Positions 2 through 55,216 of a stretch of 56,907 nt of DNA are shown piece by piece (the stretch's first letter is position 1; each line of letters begins with the position of its first letter). Made by a program: the position numbers and the translations under genes. The notes beneath the pieces are model-generated. The model was not told the origin of the DNA. It searched no databases and was given only the letters and a program-made list of their open reading frames with translations. Origin of the DNA: a bacterium (GTDB lineage Bacteria; Latescibacterota; Latescibacteria; Latescibacterales; Latescibacteraceae); contig JAJFUH010000220.1 of NCBI GenBank assembly GCA_021372535.1, positions 1 to 56,907 of the forward strand, in the 5' to 3' direction.

Positions 2-1030
2 GACCGTGAAATGGACATGCTCATGTCGAGCGGGGAACAGATATCGATGGCGGTGCTTTCGATGGCGATACAGGCGATGGGATACGATGCCATTTCGCTT
101 ACCGGACCGCAGGCCGAGATTATCACCGATTCTTCCCACCGTCGGGCCCGTATCACGGATATCAAGGCTACCCGTGTCAAGGAGGAACTGGAAAAGGGCC
201 GGATAGTTATTGTCGCGGGATTCCAGGGTATCGGAGATGACAACGAGATCACCACGCTCGGCAGGGGAGGCTCGGACACCACCGCTGTTGCACTGGCGTA
301 TGCGCTCAAAGCGGAAATCTGTGAAATTTACACGGATGTGGATGGCGTTTATACCGCTGACCCCCGAATCGTACCCAATGCACGGAAACTCGATATCATA
401 TGTTATGAGGCCATGCTGGAACTGGCAAGCATGGGAGCAAAAGTACTCCAGACACGGTCTGTCGAGCTTGCAAATAAATACGGCGTCAGGCTTTTGGTGG
501 CTCTTGCCCACGATGAAATTCCTGGTACTATAATAAAGGAGGAGGATAGTTCAATGGAACAGGTGCTTGTACGGGGTATAGCACACAACCTTGATGAAGC
601 CAAGTTCACCGTATGGCACGTTCCGGATAAGCCGGGTGTCGCCGCCGGAATTTTTACAATGCTGGCGGAAAAGGGTATCAATGTTGACATGATTATTCAA
701 AATATCGGCGCCGACGGGTTTACCGATCTGTCGTTCACCGTATCCACCGAGGATATCGAAAAGACCAATGCGCTGGCTGAACTGATAAAAAACAGCATCG
801 GAGCGGAAGAGGTCACCTGCAATGAAGATATCGCCAAAATCAGCGTAGTCGGTGTCGGAATGCGCTCTCATGCAGGAGTTGCAATGAAGTTGTTCCAGGC
901 GCTCGCCGATCATGATATCAACATCGAAATGATCAGCACATCGGAAATCAAGATATCGGTTGTTGTCTCCAAAGACAGGGCAGGAGATGCCGTACGGGCC
1001 CTCCACGACGCATTCGAGCTCGGGGGATAA
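2..1030 (+). CDS. lysC: aspartate kinase, 5'-truncated by window edge
   Basis: The reading frame is open from the first bases, so the true start and roughly the first 65 residues lie outside. The product phosphorylates aspartate, the first step to lysine, threonine and methionine. The kinase part carries a GRGGSDT segment about 84 residues after the first visible Met and the conserved tail ending in GTIIKEE. From about residue 190 two ACT domains follow (around KPGVAAGIF and [10 protein letters not shown]), the usual site of feedback inhibition. A strong Shine-Dalgarno (AAAGGAGGAGG, 535-545) sits inside the gene, 8 nt before an in-frame ATG at 554, matching the internal beta-subunit start of Bacillus-type aspartokinase II. 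The downstream partner asd follows after a 281-nt gap that contains a dispersed repeat. The family call is very secure. Confidence 0.95.
554..1030 (+). CDS. putative internally initiated aspartokinase beta subunit
   Basis: This in-frame internal start within lysC would give a 158-residue protein made only of the two ACT domains. The ribosome binding site is better than that of most genes in the window: GGAGG at 541-545, 8 nt before ATG 554. Codons for Lys-Glu-Glu-Asp create the SD, so part of the match could be a by-product of conserved protein sequence. In Bacillus subtilis aspartokinase II and in Corynebacterium, separate beta subunits made this way form alpha2beta2 enzymes. That this organism does the same is inference. 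Confidence 0.6.
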
Positions 1031-35143: not shown

Positions 35144-35270
35144 TTCAATTGTATTACTTCATATTACGATAGAAATGTGTTGCTTTATGCCGATATTCGT
35201 TTTAGAATAGGAAAGTCATACATATTATATTTTCTCTCCGTTCATTTTATTTCTTCATTGGACATTGTTA

Positions 35271-38200
35271 ATGAAACTCCGTGTTAAAAACATACTCCTC
35301 CTGATATGTGGTTTCCTCTTTTTCTGTTCAGGCGTTTTTGGCGATATGATGCCGGCAGGTGCAATACCCGGCACACTCGACGAATCATTTGGATCGTTGG
35401 GCAGAACTTACACCGATCTGAACCAGTTTTCGGCAGAATACGGCAAAGCTGTGGTTTGTAACTCGGAGGGGAAAGTCATCGTTGCCGCTACGGTCAATGG
35501 CACCATAGCCCTCGCGCGCTTCGATTCAACCGGTGTTCTGGATCCCGCCTTCGGAGATGCTGGAATAGTAATAACACCTATCACTGGTGAAGCCAAAGCT
35601 CTCAATTTATTATCTGCCGAGGGAGAATACTATATTGTCGTCGGTTCTACTGATGACGGGGGCGAAAATGATTTCGTGGTGGCCTGTTACGATTATTTGG
35701 GTGCCCCTGAAACAAATTTTGGCAATGGCGGTGTTGTTACCACCGATTTTGGAGGCACGGATGACAGCGCCTGTGCTGTCGGTATTTCTTATGACGATGG
35801 GGGGATTCTGGTCGCCGGCTATACCAATGTAAATGGTAATTACGATTTTGCCGTGGCAAAATATACCTTCCCCTTCGGCAATTTGGATACCAGCTTCAAC
35901 ATCACCGGTAAGTCTACATTTGATATTAATGATTCGGGTTATGATGATAAAGCATTTGGAATTACCATCAATGCTATCGATTATTCAATTTTGGTGACAG
36001 GTTCTGCCGGTAACGGCACAGACAGCGATCTCGCGCTGATCTGTTTGGATACTAGCGGAGATCTCGACTCTGATTTCGATTCAGATGGCATATTGACCTG
36101 CGATTTCAACTCGAACAATGACGACATCGGGTATGCAGTATCCTATAATTCAACAAATACTTGCATTGTTGTTACCGGCACCACCGATAACGGTACCGAT
36201 CTGGATTTTGCCATTGCCGTGATAGATTCCGACGGTGTTCATCTTGTGACAAAGGATTTGGGCGACGATGAACAGGGAAACGGCGTCGCATTTCAGACCG
36301 ATGGGAAAATAATTGTTTCCGGTACGGCAGGTTCCGATTTTGCCGTAATACGTTATCAGGCCGATATCGATAACGGGCTGGACACGACGTTTAACGATCC
36401 CGATGGTTATTTGATTGCCGATATTGCGGGATTCGATGACACTGCGAACGGCATGTCTCTTGATATATTCGATAGAATAGTCATTGTCGGCACCAGTATC
36501 GTTTACGGTAATCCCGATCTCGTCGTTACCCGAATAACGGCCGATGGCAGTCCCGATTACGATTTTGGCAGCGGGAGCAGTTATCAGGCAGTCGACTTTC
36601 CGTTGGTTCACCAGAATGACTGTGCATTCGGGGTAGCCGTTCAGTATGACGGAAAAATCGTCGTTTCCGGAAGCAACGGTTCGTCCGCGGGTCTTGTCCG
36701 ATATAATTCAAACGGCTCCCTCGATACGTCATTCGGTTCCAATGGCACCGTCAAGGTCACAATACCAGGATATACATGGACGGCAAATGAAAAAGTTGTA
36801 ATACAGCCCGACCATAAAATTATTCTGGTGGGTTCGACTGAAGAAGTAGGCGGTCCGCTCGTCATTTCGCGTTTCAATGAGGACGGCTCTCCGGATATCG
36901 GTTTTGGGATCAACGGGAGAGTGGAACAGGATCCGGGAGTACCGGTTTACATAGCCGGTGTCGGATTACAATCCGACGGTAAAATCGTGGTTGGAACCAC
37001 AGCCTCCGATGACGGGGATTACTTTGTATTGGTTATCCGGTTGAATACCGATGGCAGTCTTGATGAGACGTTTGGCGACGGAGGGATGGCTTATGATGAA
37101 AACGGCATGTCATATTCCGCCATGGTGTATGATATGGTCATACAGCCGGATGATAAAATCGTGTTGTCCGGTGGTATCATCAATGGGATTGTGCCGAATT
37201 TTTTCCTCGTTCGATTTACCGCCGGAGGTGTGCTGGATACCACATTCGGTTCCAATGAAGACGGAAAGGTCATTATCACACCCGGTCCGTTTGCAACTAT
37301 AGCGAATGGAGTTGCCCTTCAGCCCGACGGTAAAATCGTAGCGGCCGGATTGATGGATACTACTCAAGGAATGTGTAAGATTGCACAAGTTCCTCGTGCT
37401 CCTCGTGCTCCGAGAACTCCGAGAGCCCCGAATGCCGCTAAAGCTGCGAAAGCCGCAGAGAATTTTTTGAATATAGTCATTATGAGGTTTTTGAGCGATG
37501 GCACACTGGACGAGACATTCGCTGACGAAGGGATAAATGTGCTTGATACCGGTGAGGATATTTTTATTGAAGATGTCCTCATCGATACGAACGGGAAAAT
37601 CGTCGTTGGAGGAAATTATAATGGATGGGATTTTGCGGTCGGGTGCTTCAACAGCAACGGGTCCATTTGCAGCGAGTTTGGTGACAGTTATGTAACTGGT
37701 TTTACATTCCCGGACTTATCAACCGGTGGTGATTTTGTTGATGACTGTACCGCCATCGCGCTCGATTCCAATCATAGAATCATCGCTGTCGGTTTTTCCG
37801 ATCAGGGAACGACATACACGGACTTCACGATCGCCCGTATCAACAGTACTCCTTTAACGGTGAAATTCACTACCACAGGTCATGGGGAAGTTCTTGCGGA
37901 TTCCACACAATATGTTGTTTACAACGGTGTAACAACGTCGGTGTCACCGGATCCCGATTACGGGTATCATTTCTCCGGGTGGACCGGCGACCATACCGGA
38001 TCGGAGACTGATTTTCCCCTCATTCTCACCAATGTCATCCAAGACATGAATATCGTCGCCCATTTCTCCAAGAATACGTTTACAGTGGACTTCACCATCA
38101 TGGGGAATGGATCGATAACCGGCACGCTCTCCCAGAATGTCGAATTTGAAGGTTCCACGACGCCGGTTACCGCGGTGGCCGATCCGGGCAACCATTTCAC

Positions 38201-41200
38201 CGGATGGACGGGTGATGTTACCACAATCACCAATCCCCTTACCATCACCAATGTCGATAACAACATGGTGGTCACTGCCAATTTCAATGACGCATGCACT
38301 GTTATGAATACCGACGACAGCGGTACAGGTTCCCTCCGTCAGGCGATTCTCACCGCCAATTCGGGCGAAACGATCCTCTTCGATGCCGGTGTGATGGGGA
38401 CAATCACGCTGACATCCGGCCAGCTCGCTATCAATAAAAAACTCACGATCCACGGTCCGGGCATCGATGACCTCACCATCTCCGGCAACAATACGAGCCG
38501 GATATTCTTTATAGGCCCGAACGGAGATGTCACCATCAACCTCATGACAATAACAAACGGCAATGCGGGAATAAATGCCGGCGGCGGGATTTGGAGCCAG
38601 GGCAAGCTGACACTCTCTGCCTGTGTCGTTTCCGGCAATACCACCGACAACAATTTCGGTGCGGGAATCTGCAACTCCGACGGTGACCTCATGGTGGAGA
38701 ACTGCACGATTTCCTCCAACAACGCCGGGACAACGAGCGGGTACGGTGGTGGAATCTATGTCAGGTCCGGCTCCGCTCTCATAACGAACTCGACCATCAG
38801 CGGAAACTCGGCATACAAGGGCGGCGCTCTGTACAATACGGCATTCAATGATACATCGGCTTCAGTGTCAACCATCGAAGTTTATAACAGCACGCTGAGC
38901 GGCAACACGGTCTCATGCCAGGGTGGTGCGCTTTTCAACTGGGCTCATGACAACGTGAATGCGCATGCAAAAACGCTCTTCAACAACTGTACTATCACAG
39001 AAAACAGCGCGACTGTTGAAGGCGGTGGTGTGTATGTGAACGATTATACCGGTGACGACCAGTTGTGCGAGGTCATGCTCAAAAACACCATCCTCGCGGG
39101 GAATACCGCTCCGACCGGCGCCGATTGCCTCAATTCTCCGCAGGCAACGTGTACCACTCAGTCGCTCGGGTACTGTCTGGTCGGCGCAACAGTCGACTTC
39201 ACCGGAGGAACCGGCGACATAAACATCGGCGCCGACGATCCTTTGCTTGCCCCCCTTGCAGACAACGGCGGCCCGACCTTTACCCATGCATTGGAAAGCG
39301 GCTGCCTTGCCGTCAATGCAGGTGCCGGAACGGACAGCGAAGGTAATCCGGTCCCAAACGATCAGCGCGGCGTGGCTCGTCCCCAGGGAGCATCCAACGA
39401 TATCGGTGCTGTGGAAGCTGCGGTTCATACGGTGACATTCGTGGCGGGACCGAACGGCCACATTGACGGTACGCTCGTGCAGCAGGTTATTGATGGGGGG
39501 AGTACGACTTCGGTAACCGCAGTGCCCGATGAAAATTATCTGTTCTCCGACTGGACGGGAGATGGTCTGTATAAAACCTCAAATCCCCTCGCAGTCACCG
39601 ATGTAACATCCGATATGAATATCACGGCCAACTTTGTATCCAATACTCTTACGGTGACAAACGATTATGATGATGGTGCCGGATCGCTGCGGAATACAAT
39701 AGCCATTGCCCCGCCTGGTGCTGTTATTATGTTCGACAGTGGCCTGGCGGGTCAGGTGATAACGCTGACAACTGATGAACTCGTCATTAACAAAAACCTT
39801 ACGATCAACGGTACGGCGGCGCCGAATCTTTCGATCAACGTTTATGAGCCTATCCGTATATTTAAAGTGATCAGCGGTGTAAGCGCAACCATCACAGGGC
39901 TGACTATCAATGGCGGATATCTGGAAGGAGGCTTCGGTGCGGGAATCCTGAACGAAGGCTCGCTCATCCTCTCGGATTGCACGGTAAAAGACTGCACCAA
40001 CATCAATGGTTTCGGCGGTGGTATCTGCAACAGGGGCGATCTGGTGGTGCAGAAATGCACCATAAGCGGAAACAACGTGGGGAATGGTGACGGCGGGGGT
40101 ATTTTTAACGAGCACCTCGGGAATCTCACCGTAAACTTTTCCACAATCTGCGGTAATTCCGCCCAGCGCGGCGGCGGTATCATGAACTGGGAAACGAATA
40201 TCGAGTCCTCGGCCATCACAACCATTAACAACAGCACCATAAGTGGAAACAATGCATCCTCTTATGGCGGCGGAATAATGAACTACAGTGATTGCCAGGA
40301 TGCCAATGCGCATGTTGCGATCAATTTTGCGACGATCACCGACAATTCCGCCGGGAGCATCGGTGGCGGCCTCTATCAGGACTGGGGTGTTCAGGGTACG
40401 AAAACCGCCGAAATCGAGTACCGGGACACCATTATAGCGGGAAACAACGGCGAAGCTGGCCCCAATGACTGTGCTCAGTCCAATGGCACCATGATATCGC
40501 GAGGGTACTGCCTCATCGGTGAGACCACCGGAGATGTGACCGGCGATGCAACCGATATTGTCATCGGAACGGCAGACCCCAACCTCGGCCCGCTCGACGA
40601 TAACGGAGGCCCGACCAAGACACACAAACCGCTGTCCGGGTGTCTCGCCATCAATGCAGGTAACAGCCAGGGTATCGGCGGAACAGAATTCACGGTCGAT
40701 CAGCGATTTTTTGCCCGTCCCCAGGGAGCAGCCCACGATATCGGTGCTGTGGAAGCTGAGCTCCATACGGTAACTTTCGTGGCAGGACCAAACGGCCATA
40801 TTACAGGAACTCTCGTTCAATATGTTTCCGATGGCGGGAGCACGACGCCGGTTACCGCTATTCCCGATGAATTCTATGTTTTCTCCAACTGGTCGGGAGA
40901 TGATTTTTATAAGACCAACAATCCTCTTGTGGTAACTAATGTGTTATCCGATATGATTATCACAGCCGATTTTGCCTATGGAATTTACACGGTAACAAAC
41001 GATATGGATGACGGCTGCGGGTCGCTGAGGCATGCAATAACCTATGTTCCTCCCAATGGGTATATCGTGTTTGACAGCTCCCTTGCGAATCATGTAATAA
41101 CATTGACAACAGGTCAACTTTTCATTACTCAAAATCTTATCATCGATGGCAGTGCCGCGCCCAATCTGGAGATCAGCGGAAACAATACATCCCGCGTTTT

Positions 41201-44200
41201 TAAAGTGGACACCGGTGTAACCGTGGCCATCAGCGGATTGATTATTTCGAACGGGAATTCTTCCGGCAGCTATGGCGCCGGAATATATAATCAGGGTTCT
41301 CTGACTCTTACCAATTGCGAGATCAAAAACTGCACAGCCCCCAGCGAAGGATACGGCGCCGGAATCGCAAACAGCGGCGTTCTGGTGGTACAGAAATCCT
41401 CCATACACGATAACTCTCTGCCATCCGGTACCGGCGGAGGCATCTTTAACAGTCCACCCGGTATTGTAACCATATGCTCTTCCACAATTGCCAATAATTC
41501 CGCCTACCAGGGAGCCGGTATTATGAACCTGGATACTACCCTCTCGGCGGGTTCGGTTGTCGTTATCAACAACAGCACCATCAGCGGGAATGTGGCTTCC
41601 GACAAGGGCGGCGGCATCATGAACTACAGTGAATACAACGGTTCCGATGCCCGTGTTACCATCAATTTTGCTACAATCACCAATAATTCCGCCGCTATTG
41701 CCGGTGGAGGAATCTGCCAGGAATGGGGGTCGTCCGGCACTAAAATAGCCTTGACGCAGTACCGGAATACCATCATAGCCGGCAACACCGTCGAGGTTTC
41801 TCCCAATGACTGTGCACTGATCAATGGCACTATGATATCGATGGGGTATTGCCTTATCGGTGTGACTTCAGGAAGCCCGACCGGCGATGCCACCGATATC
41901 GTAATCGGAACGGCAAGCCCCAATCTCGGTCCGCTCGAGGATAACGGCGGCCCGACCAAAACGCATAAGCTGCTGCAGGGATGTCCCGCTATCGATGCGG
42001 GTAACAGCGAGGGTATCGGCGGCGTAGTACTCACAGTCGATCAGCGAAATTATTATCGCCCCCAGGGCGGAGGATACGATATCGGGGCTTATGAAGCTTC
42101 CGCCGGAGAAATTACAGCGGACTATACAATTATTTTCAACGCCGCCACGGGAGGCACCATCTCCGGGACAACACCCCAGATTATTCCCCCCGGCGGCACC
42201 ACGACTCCTGTAACGGCGGTTCCCGGCGCCGGGTATCTGTTCAGCGGATGGACCGGAGATTATACGGGAACGGAGAATCCGCTGACCATCGCCGATGTCT
42301 CGACGAACATGACCATCACCGCACAATTCGTTCAGAATAATGCCCCCGTACTGCTTGTTGATCGAACCCCGGTTATGACACCTATCGCCCAGGGCGCTGT
42401 TAATAATCCGGGAAATACTGTCGCCCAGATTGTCGTTGACGGTTCTATCACCGATGTAGAGGGGGCTGTGGAGGCTATTGCGGTTACTTCGGTGGATAAC
42501 AGGAACGGAAGATGGGAATATTCCCTCGATGATGGCAGCACATGGAATAATTTTTCAGCAGCGATCGGGACGATCGCATCTTTTGCAAATCTTGCCCGGT
42601 TGCTCGACGGTGTTGCAATAAGCAGCACGACGAATAAAATAAGGTTTGTGCCCAATACAAACTATACCGGTACGACATGGTTTCTGTTCCGCGCCTGGGA
42701 TAAGAGTGCGGGTACAGTCGGCCAGACAGGCAATGCGTCAGTCACCGGCGGCTCGACGCCATTCAGCGCCCAGAGAGATACGGCATATGTAAAGGTGGGG
42801 ACCCAGTACACGGTAACGTTTACCTCAGGACCGCATGGCCATCTCACCGGAACGACGACGCAGACGGTTATTTCCGGGGGGAGTTGCACACCGGTGACCG
42901 CCGTTACGGAATCAGGGTACCAGTTCGCAGGCTGGACTGGCGATTATACCGGCTCGAACAACCCTCTGACGGTCACGAATGTCACCCAAAACATGACAAT
43001 TACCGCAAACTTCGAAACCGCCCTGCACGCCGTGACCTTCACAACGGACGGGCATGGTACAATCCAGGGTGTAACGCCCCAGGGAATTCCGCATGGCGGG
43101 GATTGTTCACCGGTAACCGCTGTTCCCGCGAGCGGGTATCATTTCATCGGATGGACGGGCAGCATCACCAGTCCCAACAATCCGATTACCGTACAGCAAG
43201 TAACCGAGGACATGACCATTACCGCAGTTTTCTCGAACACATGGGTGGTACACTTTTCTGCCGGAGCTCACGGGAAACTCTCGGGTGAAACCGCGCAGCT
43301 TGTCGTTCAAGGGCAAGGCACCTCATCGGTGACCGCCATTCCCGACGCAGGATATCATTTTACGGGCTGGACAGGCGATGTAACAAGCAGCAGCAATCCG
43401 CTTTCCGTCTCGGGAGTGTCATCAAATATAAGTGTAACCGCTAATTTTTCCAATACATACACTGTCTCCTTCTCTTCCGGCGGCAATGGGAAGATAGAAG
43501 GTTCGACCTCTCAGGAGGTGATCAGCGGGCAGAGCTGCACCATGGTGACTGCCGTACCGGATACGGGTTACCAGTTCTTGGGCTGGACAGGCGATTTCGA
43601 GGGTACCGGGAATCCTCTCCTCATCGCCAATGTCTCAAAGGATATGTCCATCACCGCGCTTTTTGGTCTTCCCTCTTTTACGGTGACTTTCTCTGCGGGC
43701 TCCAATGGTTCCCTTACCGGCAATACGACACAGACTGTCGGCAAGGGTGAAAGCTGTACCGAAGTCACCGCGTTACCGGCGGATGGGTATGAATTCACCG
43801 GCTGGTCTGGTGACTACACGGGTAAAGACAACCCGCTCGTCCTGTCGAATGTAACCCGTGACATGACCATCACGGCTAATTTCGCGCTCCCTGTCTATAC
43901 GGTGAGCTTCTCTGCGGGCGCAAATGGTTCCCTTACCGGTAATACGACACAGACAGTCGGCAAGGGTGAAAACTGCACCGAAGTCACCGCGGTACCCGCG
44001 GAAGGGTATGAATTTACCGGCTGGTCCGGTGATTACACGGGTAAAGACAACCCGCTCGCCCTGTCGAATATCACCAGGGATATGACCATCACGGCTAATT
44101 TCGCGCTCCCTGTCTATACGGTGAGCTTCTCTGAGGGCGCCAATGGAAGTATTACGGGGAATACCACCCAGACGGTCAAGAAGGGTGAAAGCTCTACCGA

Positions 44201-47200
44201 AGTCACCGCGGTACCCGCGGAAGGGTATGATTTTATCGGCTGGACAGGCGATTATACGGGCGCTGCCAACCCGCTCACCCTGTCGAATGTCACTTCGGAT
44301 ATGACCATCACGGCGAATTTCGGCCAGCCTGTTTACACGGTGTCTTTCTCGGCGGGCGCCAACGGCTCTCTCACCGGACAGACTGCCCAGACAGTTAAAA
44401 AGGGCGGGAGCTGTACCGAAGTCACCGCAATTCCAGCAGAAGGGTATGATTTTATCGGCTGGAGCGGAGATTTTACAGGCGCCGCCAACCCGCTTATCAT
44501 ATCGAATGTCACTTCGGATATGACCATCACGGCTAATTTCGGCCATTCGGCCTACACGGTTACGTTCTCGTCGGGCTCCAACGGTTCGCTTTCCGGTCAG
44601 ACTTCCCAGACGGTCATAAAGGGCGGAAGTTGTTCGGCGGTTACCGCAGTGCCTGCCAACGGTTATCGCTTTACCGGATGGACCGGAGACTATACAGGCT
44701 CCGACAACCCGCTCACCTTGTCAAATGTCACCTCGGATATGACCGTCTTCGCCAATTTCTCGAACGTCTGGACAGTGACATTTTCATCGAGCGGCGGAGG
44801 GACTCTCACCGGCAACACCACCCAGACGGTAACGAACGGATCGAATTGTTCCATGGTTACCGCAGTGCCTTCAAACGGGTATCGATTCACCGGCTGGAGC
44901 GGTTCGTATAACGGTACCGATAATCCGCTCACCATATCGAATGTTACCTCGGATTTGACTATTACCGCAAACTTCTCGAATACATGGTCAGTGACATTCT
45001 CAACGAACGGTTTCGGGTCCATCAGCGGCAGTACATCTCAGACGGTGACAAACGGTTCAAACTGCTCCGAAGTTTCCGCGATTCCGGGAACAGGATACTA
45101 TTTTGCCGGATGGAGCGGAGATTATACCGGCGCTGCCAACCCGCTCACCATCACCAATGTCATGTCCGACCTCACCATTACCGCAAATTTCGTTCTCATC
45201 CCTGTTGTGGAGATTCCGAGTATCGCAGGATTTTCTCCGGGATCCGGCGGACCCGGGACCTGGGTTACCATCAGCGGATCGAACTTCAAGGGTGTGACCG
45301 ATGTATCGTTCGGCGGTACACAGGCGGCGAGCTTCGTGGTTGATTCCGATACACAGATAACAGCCCAGGTGGGCAGCGGTTCCACCGGTACGATATCGGT
45401 GACAACCGCAGGCGGAACGGCCTCGAGCACGGGAATCTTCTCCATGAATGTGAATGAAGCGCCGACCGATATTTCGCTGTCGAGCACTTCTGTGGATGAA
45501 AACAAAGATGCTGGAACGGAGGTCGGCACTTTTTCGACCACCGATGTCAATTCAGCAGACATTCATACCTATTCATTCGTAAACGGAGAAGGCGATACCG
45601 ACAACGGCAGTTTTTCGATCAGCGGTTCCTCGCTGGTCACGACGTCAAAACTCGATTACGAGACACAGAATACCTATTCGATCCGTGTTCGCTCAACCGA
45701 CAACGGCAATCCGGGATTAAGTTGCGATAGATCCTTCGTTATCACTGTCAACAATACAAACGATCCCCCTGTTATCGGTGAACTGGCCGGTGGCACCGTC
45801 AGGGAGGGAGAGCAGTTCACGCTCCAGGTTTCGGCGGTCGATGTCGAAGGCGATGCAATAACATACTCATTGAACGAAGCACCGGAGGGGATGACGATAT
45901 CCGAAACGGGCGGGATAAGCTGGACACCGGATTTCACCATGGCAGGAGACTATACCGTTACCGTTCAGGCGACGGATTCGAAGGGAAGCTCGAGCGAAGC
46001 TTCATTCAGTCTTAAAGTGCTCGAAGGCGGCACAGCGCCGGTAATAACCACAACGGAACTGCCCAATGCACAGAAAGGGATCCCGTACTCGGCTCAGATC
46101 ACGGTCGAAGACCCCGATGTTGGTGACAGTTTTGCGTTCGAACTCCTGAGCGGTCCCGGCTGGATGTCGATCAACGATGCCACGGGAGAACTGTCGGGAA
46201 CACCGTCTCAGAGTGATATTGCCGACAGTGTGACCGTTTCCGTCGGTGTAACGGACAGCGGAGGACTCAAAGCCGACAAGACCTTTACGATAACCGTGGA
46301 GAATGTGAATAATCCTCCTTCGCTGACCAACGAATCGTTACCGGATGCCAGACAGAACGAGCTCTATACGGCTCTCCTGGCCGCAACCGATCCTGACGAA
46401 GGTGATACGCTTACATTCATTATGCCGGGAGGCCCGGGCTGGATGACCCTGAATTCCGAAACGGGAGAATTATCGGGTACACCGGGCAACGGAGATGCCG
46501 CAGACAGTGTGCTGGTGACTGTCGGAGTGAGAGACAGCGGCGGTTTGACCGAAGAAAAAACGTTCATGATCAAAGTGGTCAATGTCAACGATCCACCCCG
46601 TATAACGACCGCGTCTCTGCCCGATGCCACCGAGGGACAGGAATATTCCGCGGGGATTGCTGCTGATGACCCGGATCAGGGCGACACACTGGCATTTTCG
46701 CTCGTTCAGGGTCCCGGCTGGCTCGCTATAAACTCCGAGACCGGAGCACTTTCGGGAATTCCGGGCAGCGATGATATCGCGGACAGTGTCACGGTCACCA
46801 TCGAGGTGAAGGATGCCCAGGGATTGACCGACAACCGCGAGTTCATGTTCACGGTGATCAATGTCAACGATCCTCCGGAGATAGTGACCGAGAAACTGCC
46901 GGATGGATTCGAGGATTTACCTTACGAGGCAAAGGTCGATATACTCGATCCCGACAGGAACGACACACACCTGTTCGAGCTCGTGAGCGCACCGAAATGG
47001 CTTGAGATCGATCCCACCGGAGGAGGGCTGTCCGGAAAGCCGGGTACATTTGATGTGGCTGAGGAAGTGACGATTATCATCAGAGTGACGGATGAAGGCG
47101 GATTATTCGCCGAGAAAACCTTCATGATACCGGTCAAGCCGTCTCCTCTTCCGAAAATCGAGGTGCTTTCTCCGAATGGCGGAGAAAAAATAATGGCCGG

Positions 47201-48638
47201 AGGTTCGTTCGACATCGCATGGATAGCTAAGAATCTCGCCGCCGTGATGATCGAATATACCACCAACGAGGGGGCATCATGGGAGAAAATCGTCGACAGT
47301 ATTGCGGCCGACGAAAATTACACTACATGGACTCTCCCGCAGATTCAGTCCACGCTGTGCCGTATTCGTATCAGCAATCCCGAGAACAATCTCGTGTTCG
47401 ATGTGAGCGATACGACCTTCACGATATACAGGCCTCCGGTTCTTACGGTCGACGATATATTGGGCACGCAATCGGGAAATGTTTCGATCGGTGTTCTTTC
47501 AAGCGATGCGGGCAGCGATTCGACAGGACTCATCGTATCATATGTTATCGACAATATCGAGCAGCCGGCCACAATCGATTTACCGTTCATCCCGAGCGGG
47601 CAGAAAGTGACAGTCACATGGTCGTCTTTTGCGGACATGGGCTATGTCTATAAAAAGAATCTGATATTACGGCTCATACCCTTCAATACGTACGGCAGGG
47701 GAGAGGTGACCCAGACAAAGATATTCACCGTAACGAATTATGTCGGAGACTACAACAACGATCTCTATATTGACGGCGAAGACCTCCGGATATTTGTCGA
47801 TGCATGGGAGAACGGGGACCTTACGCGTGAAATAGCACCGACCAGCGGTGAAATTCCCGATCTGCAGGTTATCCCTGACGGCAGGCTGGATTACGAGGAT
47901 CTGTCCGTATTTGCATGGATGTGGAACTGGCAGACGCTCAACCCGTTCGGAAAACCGGCTGTCGCTCTCAAAACGGCCATTCCCGATGGAGATTTTCTGT
48001 CATTCATCACCATCGTTCCCGACAGCGACGGGAATATCAGGCTGATGAGCGACCGGAGCCTTTCCTATGTGAGCATCGAGCTCGCCTCCGACCGGATTAC
48101 ATCGATTTCGGGTTCCGATTACTGGGATGGGGACGGCAAGGGTGTCGCTCTTACACGGGTATTAGCGGACGGTTCGGGTGAATTCGCTGCCGCGCGCCTG
48201 GAACCGACCACGGCGACATCAGGGATTCCCGTGACAATTGCCTCGATTTCGCTTGACGACAGGGACAACGACAACGGAAATCTCACCATCCGGTATAAAG
48301 TGAGAATTCACGGCGAGCCCGAAGTTATTTCGGGAGCATCTGCATATACCAGGGAAAAAGCGGTTGAAAAACCGGCCGCAACGACTCTTTTCCAGAACAG
48401 CCCGAATCCGTTCAACGGCTTTACAACCATTACCTATGCCCTTACGGAGGAAACGAAGGTTAAACTGACCATATACAATGTTTCGGGCCAGCAGGTGAAA
48501 GTACTGAAAGATGAATATGTGTCTCCGGGAACTTATTCTGCTTTGTGGGATGCTTCCGGTATGCCGAGCGGGATATATTTCTATTCATTTGAAGCAGGCA
48601 ATTTCATCGCTACGAAGAAACTGCTCCTTGTCAAATAG
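35271..48638 (+). CDS. giant modular surface protein (delta-60, beta-helix, B-repeat, Ig, dockerin-like, FlgD-like tail)
   Basis: About 4,455 residues with a signal peptide (cleavage near VFG/DM). Approximate domain order: ~14 delta-60 repeats (30-860), broken at ~708-730 by a PRA/AKA low-complexity insert; two InlB-type B-repeats (865-1008); three units of right-handed beta-helix plus one B-repeat (1010-2358), each ~1.34 kb; a beta domain (2359-2512); eleven tandem ~73-residue B-repeats (2514-3312); IPT/TIG; cadherin-like; five putative Ig domains (3500-3960); a Kre9-like module; a dockerin-like pair of F-hand loops (4160-4225), the first with D-x-N-x-D-x-x-x-D-x-x-D; a beta domain; and a FlgD-Ig/type IX-like tail (SPNPFNGFTTI to LLLVK). 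It should be secreted and displayed as an adhesin or carbohydrate-binding fibre. TTG 35265 is an alternative start. The function is inferred. Confidence 0.9.
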   Translation: MKLRVKNILLLICGFLFFCSGVFGDMMPAGAIPGTLDESFGSLGRTYTDLNQFSAEYGKAVVCNSEGKVIVAATVNGTIALARFDSTGVLDPAFGDAGIVITPITGEAKALNLLSAEGEYYIVVGSTDDGGENDFVVACYDYLGAPETNFGNGGVVTTDFGGTDDSACAVGISYDDGGILVAGYTNVNGNYDFAVAKYTFPFGNLDTSFNITGKSTFDINDSGYDDKAFGITINAIDYSILVTGSAGNGTDSDLALICLDTSGDLDSDFDSDGILTCDFNSNNDDIGYAVSYNSTNTCIVVTGTTDNGTDLDFAIAVIDSDGVHLVTKDLGDDEQGNGVAFQTDGKIIVSGTAGSDFAVIRYQADIDNGLDTTFNDPDGYLIADIAGFDDTANGMSLDIFDRIVIVGTSIVYGNPDLVVTRITADGSPDYDFGSGSSYQAVDFPLVHQNDCAFGVAVQYDGKIVVSGSNGSSAGLVRYNSNGSLDTSFGSNGTVKVTIPGYTWTANEKVVIQPDHKIILVGSTEEVGGPLVISRFNEDGSPDIGFGINGRVEQDPGVPVYIAGVGLQSDGKIVVGTTASDDGDYFVLVIRLNTDGSLDETFGDGGMAYDENGMSYSAMVYDMVIQPDDKIVLSGGIINGIVPNFFLVRFTAGGVLDTTFGSNEDGKVIITPGPFATIANGVALQPDGKIVAAGLMDTTQGMCKIAQVPRAPRAPRTPRAPNAAKAAKAAENFLNIVIMRFLSDGTLDETFADEGINVLDTGEDIFIEDVLIDTNGKIVVGGNYNGWDFAVGCFNSNGSICSEFGDSYVTGFTFPDLSTGGDFVDDCTAIALDSNHRIIAVGFSDQGTTYTDFTIARINSTPLTVKFTTTGHGEVLADSTQYVVYNGVTTSVSPDPDYGYHFSGWTGDHTGSETDFPLILTNVIQDMNIVAHFSKNTFTVDFTIMGNGSITGTLSQNVEFEGSTTPVTAVADPGNHFTGWTGDVTTITNPLTITNVDNNMVVTANFNDACTVMNTDDSGTGSLRQAILTANSGETILFDAGVMGTITLTSGQLAINKKLTIHGPGIDDLTISGNNTSRIFFIGPNGDVTINLMTITNGNAGINAGGGIWSQGKLTLSACVVSGNTTDNNFGAGICNSDGDLMVENCTISSNNAGTTSGYGGGIYVRSGSALITNSTISGNSAYKGGALYNTAFNDTSASVSTIEVYNSTLSGNTVSCQGGALFNWAHDNVNAHAKTLFNNCTITENSATVEGGGVYVNDYTGDDQLCEVMLKNTILAGNTAPTGADCLNSPQATCTTQSLGYCLVGATVDFTGGTGDINIGADDPLLAPLADNGGPTFTHALESGCLAVNAGAGTDSEGNPVPNDQRGVARPQGASNDIGAVEAAVHTVTFVAGPNGHIDGTLVQQVIDGGSTTSVTAVPDENYLFSDWTGDGLYKTSNPLAVTDVTSDMNITANFVSNTLTVTNDYDDGAGSLRNTIAIAPPGAVIMFDSGLAGQVITLTTDELVINKNLTINGTAAPNLSINVYEPIRIFKVISGVSATITGLTINGGYLEGGFGAGILNEGSLILSDCTVKDCTNINGFGGGICNRGDLVVQKCTISGNNVGNGDGGGIFNEHLGNLTVNFSTICGNSAQRGGGIMNWETNIESSAITTINNSTISGNNASSYGGGIMNYSDCQDANAHVAINFATITDNSAGSIGGGLYQDWGVQGTKTAEIEYRDTIIAGNNGEAGPNDCAQSNGTMISRGYCLIGETTGDVTGDATDIVIGTADPNLGPLDDNGGPTKTHKPLSGCLAINAGNSQGIGGTEFTVDQRFFARPQGAAHDIGAVEAELHTVTFVAGPNGHITGTLVQYVSDGGSTTPVTAIPDEFYVFSNWSGDDFYKTNNPLVVTNVLSDMIITADFAYGIYTVTNDMDDGCGSLRHAITYVPPNGYIVFDSSLANHVITLTTGQLFITQNLIIDGSAAPNLEISGNNTSRVFKVDTGVTVAISGLIISNGNSSGSYGAGIYNQGSLTLTNCEIKNCTAPSEGYGAGIANSGVLVVQKSSIHDNSLPSGTGGGIFNSPPGIVTICSSTIANNSAYQGAGIMNLDTTLSAGSVVVINNSTISGNVASDKGGGIMNYSEYNGSDARVTINFATITNNSAAIAGGGICQEWGSSGTKIALTQYRNTIIAGNTVEVSPNDCALINGTMISMGYCLIGVTSGSPTGDATDIVIGTASPNLGPLEDNGGPTKTHKLLQGCPAIDAGNSEGIGGVVLTVDQRNYYRPQGGGYDIGAYEASAGEITADYTIIFNAATGGTISGTTPQIIPPGGTTTPVTAVPGAGYLFSGWTGDYTGTENPLTIADVSTNMTITAQFVQNNAPVLLVDRTPVMTPIAQGAVNNPGNTVAQIVVDGSITDVEGAVEAIAVTSVDNRNGRWEYSLDDGSTWNNFSAAIGTIASFANLARLLDGVAISSTTNKIRFVPNTNYTGTTWFLFRAWDKSAGTVGQTGNASVTGGSTPFSAQRDTAYVKVGTQYTVTFTSGPHGHLTGTTTQTVISGGSCTPVTAVTESGYQFAGWTGDYTGSNNPLTVTNVTQNMTITANFETALHAVTFTTDGHGTIQGVTPQGIPHGGDCSPVTAVPASGYHFIGWTGSITSPNNPITVQQVTEDMTITAVFSNTWVVHFSAGAHGKLSGETAQLVVQGQGTSSVTAIPDAGYHFTGWTGDVTSSSNPLSVSGVSSNISVTANFSNTYTVSFSSGGNGKIEGSTSQEVISGQSCTMVTAVPDTGYQFLGWTGDFEGTGNPLLIANVSKDMSITALFGLPSFTVTFSAGSNGSLTGNTTQTVGKGESCTEVTALPADGYEFTGWSGDYTGKDNPLVLSNVTRDMTITANFALPVYTVSFSAGANGSLTGNTTQTVGKGENCTEVTAVPAEGYEFTGWSGDYTGKDNPLALSNITRDMTITANFALPVYTVSFSEGANGSITGNTTQTVKKGESSTEVTAVPAEGYDFIGWTGDYTGAANPLTLSNVTSDMTITANFGQPVYTVSFSAGANGSLTGQTAQTVKKGGSCTEVTAIPAEGYDFIGWSGDFTGAANPLIISNVTSDMTITANFGHSAYTVTFSSGSNGSLSGQTSQTVIKGGSCSAVTAVPANGYRFTGWTGDYTGSDNPLTLSNVTSDMTVFANFSNVWTVTFSSSGGGTLTGNTTQTVTNGSNCSMVTAVPSNGYRFTGWSGSYNGTDNPLTISNVTSDLTITANFSNTWSVTFSTNGFGSISGSTSQTVTNGSNCSEVSAIPGTGYYFAGWSGDYTGAANPLTITNVMSDLTITANFVLIPVVEIPSIAGFSPGSGGPGTWVTISGSNFKGVTDVSFGGTQAASFVVDSDTQITAQVGSGSTGTISVTTAGGTASSTGIFSMNVNEAPTDISLSSTSVDENKDAGTEVGTFSTTDVNSADIHTYSFVNGEGDTDNGSFSISGSSLVTTSKLDYETQNTYSIRVRSTDNGNPGLSCDRSFVITVNNTNDPPVIGELAGGTVREGEQFTLQVSAVDVEGDAITYSLNEAPEGMTISETGGISWTPDFTMAGDYTVTVQATDSKGSSSEASFSLKVLEGGTAPVITTTELPNAQKGIPYSAQITVEDPDVGDSFAFELLSGPGWMSINDATGELSGTPSQSDIADSVTVSVGVTDSGGLKADKTFTITVENVNNPPSLTNESLPDARQNELYTALLAATDPDEGDTLTFIMPGGPGWMTLNSETGELSGTPGNGDAADSVLVTVGVRDSGGLTEEKTFMIKVVNVNDPPRITTASLPDATEGQEYSAGIAADDPDQGDTLAFSLVQGPGWLAINSETGALSGIPGSDDIADSVTVTIEVKDAQGLTDNREFMFTVINVNDPPEIVTEKLPDGFEDLPYEAKVDILDPDRNDTHLFELVSAPKWLEIDPTGGGLSGKPGTFDVAEEVTIIIRVTDEGGLFAEKTFMIPVKPSPLPKIEVLSPNGGEKIMAGGSFDIAWIAKNLAAVMIEYTTNEGASWEKIVDSIAADENYTTWTLPQIQSTLCRIRISNPENNLVFDVSDTTFTIYRPPVLTVDDILGTQSGNVSIGVLSSDAGSDSTGLIVSYVIDNIEQPATIDLPFIPSGQKVTVTWSSFADMGYVYKKNLILRLIPFNTYGRGEVTQTKIFTVTNYVGDYNNDLYIDGEDLRIFVDAWENGDLTREIAPTSGEIPDLQVIPDGRLDYEDLSVFAWMWNWQTLNPFGKPAVALKTAIPDGDFLSFITIVPDSDGNIRLMSDRSLSYVSIELASDRITSISGSDYWDGDGKGVALTRVLADGSGEFAAARLEPTTATSGIPVTIASISLDDRDNDNGNLTIRYKVRIHGEPEVISGASAYTREKAVEKPAATTLFQNSPNPFNGFTTITYALTEETKVKLTIYNVSGQQVKVLKDEYVSPGTYSALWDASGMPSGIYFYSFEAGNFIATKKLLLVK
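37390..37461 (+). repeat. in-frame low-complexity insert inside the giant gene
   Basis: Short units encoding Pro-Arg-Ala (three and a variant PRT) then Ala-Lys-Ala interrupt a delta-60 repeat between K-I-A-Q and the strand N-F-L-N-I. The DNA is made of GTGCTCC/CGAGAACTCC-like pieces that do not resemble the surrounding repeat and recall the gagctccacgagctccggg stretch at 56652. Confidence 0.6.
38292..42336 (+). repeat. three ~1.34-kb tandem units encoding beta-helix plus B-repeat
   Basis: Units start near 38292, 39640 and 40984. Each begins with V-T-N/M-N-D-x-D-D-G-x-G-S-L-R, passes through an N-S-T-I-S-G-N rich beta-helix and ends with a PQG...DIGA(V/Y)EA segment and one B-repeat. Spacing of 1,348 and 1,344 bp marks a tandem triplication. 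Confidence 0.85.
42805..45200 (+). repeat. eleven tandem InlB-type B-repeats, period ~219 bp
   Basis: Each unit has T-V-T-F-S-x-G-x-N-G, then G-Y-x-F-x-G-W-T/S-G-D, then N-P-L, then N-V-T-x-D-M-T-I-T-A-N-F. Units five to nine (about 43675-44545) are near-identical at DNA level; the string TTCGCGCTCCCTGTCTATAC recurs 219 bp apart (43881 and 44100), so recent unit duplication or gene conversion is likely. Confidence 0.9.
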
Positions 48639-48699
48639 GATCGGAATTAACAGGGAATATTTATAACTGTCAGAGGTTACAGTATTGAAACCGCCGGAT

Positions 48700-48716
48700 C
48701 GATAATCCGGATTAAC
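48700..48716. other. small hairpin between giant gene and lipoprotein gene
   Basis: CCGGAT-cgata-ATCCGG forms a 6-bp stem without a T-run, so it is not a convincing terminator. A near-repeat TTAACAGGGAATAT/TTAACAGGAATAT brackets this region. Confidence 0.35.
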
Positions 48717-48736
48717 AGGAATATGTTGAGTATCGT

Positions 48737-49522
48737 ATGAAGAACACCTTAGCCCGCACCATATCGCCCTTTATCATTTCGCTTCTGGTCATCCTGCTCG
48801 GTAATCTTGGATGCAGGGCGATTACGGAGCCTGAAATCGAGTATACCTCCTTCAAGGATGGCGATGTTTTCGTTACGCGGGATATTTCGATTAACTGGGA
48901 GGGTGTATTTCACCAGGAAATTGCCGATCACTGGAGACGGAACGACAATCTCAATTACTATTATAAACTCGACAACGGATTATGGATTTTCACGACCGAG
49001 CTTTCCGCCACACTGAGCGATGTATCCGAGGGGCAGCATAAATTATCCATCCAGTCCCAGTTTGAGGATGGAATACCGGGCCCGCCTACGACGCTCACGT
49101 TCACCGTGGATACCATTCAGGGGCCGGGCCTTACTTTTAATCCCCGTAAAGTTACGAGCGATTCGACGGTTGCGCTCAAGTTCGAGGATGTTCAGAGTAT
49201 CATGTCCGCCCATATCGAAATCGTGTGCGATAACGATTGCGCGGAACTGAGCGGTTTTGTGAAAAACGGCGCGCTTGTTACAAGCGGCGAATATATTGTC
49301 CTCATTAACGAGAAAAATCCCTCACGGCTTATCATCGATCTGGCCTTTGCGGGCAATCCGGACGGTAAAAGCGGATCGCCCGATTTCGGCAGTTTCACCG
49401 TAAAGCCCAAAGGTAACGGAACAATCACGATCGATCCCGCCACACTCCGTTTCAAAGATATCGACAATGCCGATGTTCCTGTCGATCCGGCGAGCCTCGA
49501 CTGGATAAAGGTCGAGCAATAG
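48737..49522 (+). CDS. lipoprotein with cohesin-like domain
   Basis: A 261-residue protein directly after the giant gene. A hydrophobic N-terminus ends in L-G-N-L-G-C, a lipobox-like site (Gly at -1; Asn at -3 is unusual). From about residue 128 the pattern L-T-F-N-P, A-H-I-E-I-V, N-G-A-L-V, A-F-A-G-N-P-D-G-K-S-G-S, then F-T-V-K-P-K-G-N-G-T-I-T-I and a last L-R-F-K-D strand resembles a cohesin beta-sandwich. With the dockerin-like segment in the neighbour this suggests an anchor for it. The resemblance was judged by eye only. There is a 98-nt gap and no strong SD, so co-transcription is likely but not proven. Confidence 0.65.
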   Translation: MKNTLARTISPFIISLLVILLGNLGCRAITEPEIEYTSFKDGDVFVTRDISINWEGVFHQEIADHWRRNDNLNYYYKLDNGLWIFTTELSATLSDVSEGQHKLSIQSQFEDGIPGPPTTLTFTVDTIQGPGLTFNPRKVTSDSTVALKFEDVQSIMSAHIEIVCDNDCAELSGFVKNGALVTSGEYIVLINEKNPSRLIIDLAFAGNPDGKSGSPDFGSFTVKPKGNGTITIDPATLRFKDIDNADVPVDPASLDWIKVEQ

Positions 49523-54334: not shown

Positions 54335-55216
54335 ATGACTAAACACGCACAACCACTTGCCGAAGTCTTTGGTCACCTTATAAGTGATCAGACGAAAAAG
54401 GCAGTCAGGTACCGTTCGCATCGCCTTTGTCCATTTAATAACAAAGTTCCAAATTGTACAAAAGACAAAGCCAAGAACCCCCTTGGTGTATGCAGTGTGT
54501 TCCATGATGGGTCCCCATCGATAACCTGCCCTATCCGATTTAGAGAGAATTGGCTTATTACCGATGATGCTGCTTCTTTTATCTTTGATGAAGGCACTGC
54601 ATGGAGTTCCCTTACGGAAGTCCGCCTGAACGACGCTAATGGTAAGTCGGCTGGTAATATTGACATTGTTCTTATCGCATACGACAACAATGGGAAAATC
54701 ATAGACTTTGGGGCTCTTGAAATACAAGCGGTTTACATTTCTGGAAATGTACGCGATCCATTCGAATACTTCATGAAAGATCCTAAAAATCGCGGACAAA
54801 TGGATTGGTCAACTCAGCCGAACTATCCACGTCCAGACTATCTTTCCTCTTCTCGCAAGAGACTAGCTCCGCAATTGCTGTTCAAAGGCGGAATTCTTCA
54901 TTCGTGGCAGAAGAAAATAGCTGTCGCAATGAACAAGTGTTTTTTTGATACACTCCCCCCCTTGACAACTGTGGATAAAACAAAAGCCGATATCGTATGG
55001 CTAATCTATGATCTCGAGATGGCTAAAGAGGGTGATCAGGACAGGTATATACTCACGAAAATTGATGAAGTGTTTACAGAATTCGCACCTGCTTTGATGT
55101 CAATTACCACCCCCATGCCAGGGGAAATCGATGACTTTGTGAAAATGCTTCAGGAGAAGCTTGATGAGCAACTTGAAACTCCTCCGACTAACAAAACAGT
55201 TGAAAGGCCATTTTGA
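54335..55216 (+). CDS. NotI-family type II restriction endonuclease
   Basis: The 293-residue protein matches the NotI family: R-L-C-P-F-N-N-K-V-P-N-C-T-K-D-K followed by L-G-V-C-S and later I-T-C-P supplies the four cysteines that hold an iron atom in NotI. The nuclease core shows N-I-D-I-V-L and then A-L-E-I-Q, an Asp and Glu-x-Gln set replacing the usual E-x-K. The gene is AT-rich and codes unlike its neighbours, so it was probably acquired. It overlaps the methyltransferase gene. The recognition site is not known. AAAGGAT lies ~10 nt before the start. Confidence 0.85.
   Translation: MTKHAQPLAEVFGHLISDQTKKAVRYRSHRLCPFNNKVPNCTKDKAKNPLGVCSVFHDGSPSITCPIRFRENWLITDDAASFIFDEGTAWSSLTEVRLNDANGKSAGNIDIVLIAYDNNGKIIDFGALEIQAVYISGNVRDPFEYFMKDPKNRGQMDWSTQPNYPRPDYLSSSRKRLAPQLLFKGGILHSWQKKIAVAMNKCFFDTLPPLTTVDKTKADIVWLIYDLEMAKEGDQDRYILTKIDEVFTEFAPALMSITTPMPGEIDDFVKMLQEKLDEQLETPPTNKTVERPF

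Follow-up and report, generated by a model that had tools for sequence, protein, structure and literature searches.

How a very large exported protein is kept on the cell surface is the question raised by two adjoining genes in the window, a 56,907-nucleotide stretch that is contig JAJFUH010000220.1 (C220) of a 5.35-Mb Candidatus Latescibacterota genome. Surface attachment of such proteins in uncultured diderms is mostly unknown. One gene encodes a giant, predicted surface protein with a dockerin-like domain near its C-terminus, and the other encodes a probable lipoprotein that ends in a cohesin. The two most likely form a non-cellulosomal cohesin-dockerin pair that anchors a giant exported by the type IX secretion system (T9SS); a lipoprotein cohesin acting with a dockerin would be a testable, cellulose-free answer to the attachment problem. 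An anchoring pair of this kind had been put forward in a preliminary description of the DNA. Predicted folds and pairing across phyla support that proposal, and we infer the binding itself from them.

The giant starts with an N-terminal propeller of delta-60/DUF5122 repeats and continues through choice-of-anchor Q segments, 16 divergent InlB B-repeats and cadherin/He_PIG immunoglobulin (Ig) domains to a C-terminal module (Table 1). Its paralogues head instead with FG-GAP or HYDIN/ASH domains. In the C-terminal module the dockerin-like domain comes first, then a cohesin-like domain of divergent sequence, then the type IX tail. The tail exceeds the cut-offs of both curated models (Por_Secre_tail, 39.4 bits; TIGR04183, 39.8 bits), and the T9SS translocon gene sprA is present in the genome (SprA, 628 bits, over the cut-off). 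With a sorting domain and a T9SS gene in the same genome, the giant qualifies on sequence grounds as a type IX substrate. The size of ~4,455 residues and the type IX-like tail given in the preliminary description agree with the open reading frame (ORF) check and with the two tail models.

The consensus used for a dockerin F-hand loop was D-x-N-x-D-x-x-I-D-x-x-D, and two loops are expected. Loop 1 of the giant is canonical and complete (V-G-D-Y-N-N-D-L-Y-I-D-G-E-D-L at 47742), and its first loop aspartate lies at 47748, exactly where the F-hand loop had been placed before. A second, partly degenerate loop ending in D-G-R-L-D-Y-E-D-L had also been described, and this motif was found ~43 residues after loop 1. 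It belongs to a half loop (P-D-G-R-L-D-Y-E-D) that keeps positions 5, 9 and 12 and is without positions 1 and 3. Both loops together occurred in none of 300 shuffles of the giant, and loop 1 alone in 2 of 300. Residues D3, D11, D14, W22, D50, E52, D53 and F57 are invariant in an alignment of 12 related dockerin-like domains, and a G-P insert between the loops is conserved in this dockerin subtype. An AlphaFold2 model of the dockerin-like and cohesin-like domains places a helix after each loop (residues 12-24 and 51-66).

The sole curated dockerin model to recognise this subtype consistently is dockerin_GC (NF041540), which detects 8 of 8 members tested, all under its 29-bit cut-off (22.9 bits for the window member). 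Dockerin_1 (PF00404) does not match the window member and gives weak matches in 4 of 12 members. Comparison of the subtype with a classical-dockerin profile produced a weak match in which loop 1 alone was aligned. Apart from many spike-protein matches, rejected as chance similarity over a short stretch, a PDB profile search with the dockerin alignment returned EF-hand proteins and one subsignificant dockerin and no more. The domain is termed dockerin-like because the dockerin_GC matches stay under the cut-off and the Dockerin_1 matches are weak. Its sequence suggests a divergent subtype close to dockerin_GC, and its context points to a dockerin role.

The product of the next gene is probably a lipoprotein, judged from a hydrophobic N-terminal helix and from Cys26, which the aligned full-length homologues share. 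These features fit the earlier designation of a small lipoprotein; the lipobox, weighed below, is atypical. An AlphaFold2 model built with 12 homologues has a pLDDT of 85.7, and the last ~130 residues, mostly above 90, fold as a nine-stranded cohesin jelly-roll. Cohesins make up most of the top PDB matches in a Foldseek search with this model (TM to target 0.64-0.70; 6kgd, 2vo8, 2xdh). The structural matches include Clostridium acetobutylicum CohA2, taken from a dockerin complex, a C. perfringens cohesin and the non-cellulosomal Archaeoglobus fulgidus cohesin 2xdh. For profile comparison with hhalign, the last ~130 residues of five close family members were aligned to a four-sequence cohesin alignment, consisting of L048, L036 and L041, which pass Pfam Cohesin, and the L048-like L045; the match was 97.3% with E 2.4e-11. 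Profile and structure prediction thus both place a cohesin where the preliminary description had seen a resemblance to one.

The window lipoprotein has no match to PF00963 (gathering cut-off 24.1 bits), and a scan of it against Pfam and NCBIfam gave nothing above chance. PF00963 is passed by its relatives L048 (34.1 bits), L052 (32.7 bits) and L041 (26.3 bits) and by L036. The L041 and L052 lipoproteins lie beside a dockerin gene, that of L048 is on a truncated contig, and those of L036 and L041 belong to a second subtype. The preliminary description had suggested hidden Markov model searches with PF00404 and PF00963; these find neither of the divergent window proteins and succeed, for PF00963, on the lipoprotein relatives. 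The window genome itself encodes further homologues of the lipoprotein (C45, C158); a congeneric species (G001) has homologues too, and more remote ones occur elsewhere in the phylum. Searches of the PDB with phmmer returned chance matches or none for the giant and the lipoprotein, and a protein search of plasmids returned no match. Since neither PF00963 nor PF00404 matches the window proteins, the argument is built on relatives and on fold prediction. By predicted fold and homology the lipoprotein is a divergent cohesin homologue; by score it is not a Pfam member.

Pairing of the two genes was followed in 28 public loci found by a dockerin-only query, with the neighbours inspected afterwards. 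The dockerin was chosen because the lipoprotein alignment contains no conserved stretch; with the dockerin alone as query, the pairing test is blind to cohesins. A stand-alone cohesin gene lies directly beside the dockerin gene in Latescibacterota (L050), Zixibacteriota (L052), Marinimicrobia (L059), Calditrichota (L069), Poribacteria (L070), Bacteroidota (L076) and the firmicute Dethiobacter (L067). In L053 and L074 the cohesin gene is one gene away, and another dockerin-cohesin pair was found in G002. At loci outside model building, cohesins are encoded by 6 of 20 adjacent ORFs and 4 of 155 other ORFs (Fisher p 1.7e-4), counts limited by the use of metagenome-assembled genomes. One of the four non-adjacent cohesin ORFs is in L074, two genes from the dockerin, and the other three are in cohesin runs that start beside the dockerin gene. 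In each of the 14 listed pairs the genes share a strand; overlaps of 4 bp are present in four, and either gene may come first. Two gene orders on an unvarying strand point to selection for the pairing, as opposed to descent of a single fixed block. Conserved co-occurrence, on which the preliminary description had made its proposal depend, is therefore found across genomes and phyla. The same two-gene set in several phyla is probably a general way to hold very large exported proteins on the surface.

The window genome has paralogous pairs on C220 and C158 and a third split over two contigs, the lipoprotein and the N-terminal 1,204 giant residues being on C45 and the C-terminal 784 on C82. These giant parts match both ends of the 3,295-residue giant on C384 of G001. 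Comparison of the lipoproteins gives 49% for C45/G001-C384 and 45% for C158/G001-C256, and other within-genus lipoprotein comparisons give 31-36%. The giants of the same pairs give 53% and 42%, respectively. Within the genus, lipoproteins and giants have diverged in parallel. A fourth set, of the second subtype, possibly consists of the C85 dockerin and the C36 cohesin lipoprotein; the relatives of these two lie side by side in G001 C362. The heads of the giants are unrelated (propeller/B-repeats, HYDIN/ASH, FG-GAP, fn3, VWA), and the tail is constant.

Table 1. Features of the giant and lipoprotein genes in the window, with an associated gene at other loci
Feature	Location	Strand	Details
Giant (predicted surface) protein gene	35265..48638	+	ORF of 4457 codons from TTG; 4455 aa from ATG 35271
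Dockerin-like domain	47742..47942	+	F-hand loop 1 and helix, half loop 2 and helix
Divergent cohesin-like beta-sandwich	47991..48368	+	directly after dockerin-like domain; 9 strands in AlphaFold2 model
Type IX secretion C-terminal sorting tail (Por_Secre_tail / TIGR04183)	48399..48635	+	curated-model matches
Cohesin lipoprotein gene	48737..49522	+	261 aa; starts 98 bp downstream of giant gene
Probable lipoprotein signal/anchor	residues 1-26		hydrophobic helix ending at Cys26
Lipoprotein Ig-like domain	residues about 33-125		
Lipoprotein cohesin domain	49115..49519	+	residues about 128-261; profile comparison and AlphaFold2/Foldseek
DUF5683-region membrane protein	L032:7064-8500, L038:4898-5989, L046:7065-7901, L059:5996-7414, L074:2921-4432		

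The cohesin-like domain directly following the dockerin-like domain in the giant was missed in the preliminary description. Its top PDB match in a structural search is the C. perfringens cohesin-like module 2jh2 (E 2e-5). It reaches cohesins by fold and, via intermediates, by profile; direct profile comparison with the lipoprotein cohesin gave no match. The giants of relatives carry a clear cohesin at the same position, and the window copy has drifted. The dockerin-like and cohesin-like domains are adjacent in every giant aligned, and their two-domain AlphaFold model has a pTM of 0.77 with a low-confidence linker.

Several observations count against an anchoring pair. Loop 2 is without positions 1 and 3, which makes calcium binding there doubtful. 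The window lipobox, N-L-G-C, is atypical at -3, where relatives have L-S-G-C or L-G-G-C. Dockerin genes without a cohesin neighbour on the contig occur in G002 (C324 and C248), L056, L060 and L073; several other contigs of dockerin genes are truncated on one side. The presence of a cohesin-like neighbour in the giant, together with the pTM of the model, means that the dockerin may be occupied in cis, and this is the main rival explanation. The two domains would then form a compact unit, like an X-module with its dockerin, that provides a rigid fold for type IX export, and the lipoprotein cohesin would bind something else or other domains of the giant. Such a unit accords with the constant adjacency of the domains and with a model of this quality despite the poor linker. 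It leaves unexplained, however, why many phyla, with either gene order, encode a separate cohesin lipoprotein beside the giant. In the window genus, moreover, the lipoprotein cohesin is retained, whereas the cis domain has become hardly recognisable. We consider a cis unit unlikely.

The occurrence of a dockerin and a cohesin in one chain, seen in the window giant and in L044, L061, L062, L063, L066, L068 and L071, would also suit head-to-tail polymers in which each giant's dockerin binds the cohesin-like domain of its neighbour and the lipoprotein cohesin does no more than cap or root the chain. Chains that combine one dockerin with several cohesins have been reported in anaerobic methanotrophic archaea (ANME) (PMC9012536), and a dockerin-cohesin adaptor has been proposed for the planctosome (PMC6461901). 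We give polymerisation very little credence; the dockerin and the cis cohesin-like domain lie side by side at one end of the giant, an arrangement poorly suited to chain lengthening. A degenerate, non-binding remnant is highly improbable as well. The EF-hand-like segment would be a structural calcium element and the lipoprotein an unrelated, co-transcribed surface protein, in keeping with the scores of both window domains under the curated Pfam and NCBIfam cut-offs and with the missing half of loop 2. The strong cohesin fold and homology of the lipoprotein, the conservation of the pairing across phyla and paralogues, and loop residues that are invariant over large distances speak against a remnant. 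A cellulosome was rejected on the basis that neither enzymes nor cellulose-binding modules were seen in the giant or the relatives scanned, and that the lipoprotein has a single cohesin.

In the proposed anchoring mechanism, the giant would cross the inner membrane via Sec and then, by means of its C-terminal tail, leave through the outer membrane via the type IX machinery. Removal of the tail would leave a C-terminal region that exposes a calcium-dependent dockerin-like domain. The lipoprotein would sit in the outer membrane by its lipid, facing outward, and its Ig-like spacer would raise the cohesin. Binding of the giant's dockerin by this cohesin would retain the giant fibre non-covalently on the cell surface. 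Every giant would have its own lipoprotein partner, the tail being the same and the heads different. Type IX cargo is usually attached covalently, by sortase and anionic lipopolysaccharide (A-LPS). As a tentative extension, the pairs could represent a widespread surface-display system of the Fibrobacteres-Chlorobi-Bacteroidetes (FCB) group and related bacteria that replaces covalent attachment with a constant dockerin-cohesin-tail module, a private lipoprotein cohesin and several orthogonal pairs per cell.

Known counterparts include the cellulosomal anchoring scaffoldins and the type I/II pairs (Clostridium thermocellum, Acetivibrio), which are among the best structural matches. Features in common are the cohesin jelly-roll, a dockerin with two F-hand units, the second a half loop here, and, as proposed, an envelope protein whose cohesin captures a dockerin protein. 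Their anchors are S-layer homology (SLH) or sortase proteins with cohesin arrays, whereas the anchor here is a probable single-cohesin lipoprotein, its cargo would be a type IX-tailed, adhesin-like giant, and the host is a diderm of the FCB group. The A. fulgidus and C. perfringens cohesins, to which the window cohesin aligns (2xdh, 2vo8), are also single cohesins outside a cellulosome; the window differs in its dedicated neighbouring lipoprotein gene and type IX-tailed giant, repeated as paralogous pairs. Cohesin-dockerin tethering of large proteins to the surface of uncultured diderms has been proposed for the planctosome (PMC6461901) and the cellulosome-like complex of the Cloacimonadota member Ca. 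Stygibacter (PMC8542988). The cargo there is peptidases or glycosidases and the scaffold consists of tandem cohesins or a lamin-tail anchor, whereas here a small lipoprotein takes that place and the giant is itself the cargo. The Ca. Stygibacter scaffoldin has a C-terminal domain for cell-surface attachment, for which its authors cite a T9SS review (PMC8542988). The dockerin_GC family is alike in that its model detects the window subtype, which differs in scoring under the cut-off and in its half loop 2 and conserved G-P insert.

Cohesin-dockerin systems outside cellulosomes have been described or proposed in archaea, in ANME and their bacterial partners (PMC9012536, PMC10553843), in Planctomycetes (PMC6461901), in Omnitrophota (PMC10066038) and in Cloacimonadota (PMC8542988). 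The open-access literature searched, with subscription papers outside its scope, contained no description of a cohesin lipoprotein dedicated to an adjoining type IX-tailed giant or of dockerins in Latescibacterota. Curated models miss both halves of the system, which is therefore probably under-annotated. The pair family provides a natural set of divergent, possibly orthogonal cohesin-dockerin pairs.

In several phyla, the gene that precedes the one for the cohesin lipoprotein encodes a membrane protein containing a DUF5683 region, frequently PEGA domains and, in one case, a caspase domain. This membrane protein is a candidate third component; because no gene of this type was present among the neighbouring window genes scanned, it is taken as accessory rather than core. 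At the Dethiobacter locus (L067:5441-14334), several cohesin genes in a row come after the dockerin giant, together with one classical dockerin protein, and the arrangement resembles a small scaffold cluster of non-cellulosomal kind. The window genome also encodes, at L037 (G000:C9, 1559-8581, minus strand), two other proteins with type IX tails; these carry classical Pfam dockerins of a type unlike that of the window. A NotI-family restriction endonuclease (PF12183, 210 bits) is encoded at 54335-55216 on the plus strand of the window, ~5 kb downstream of the pair.

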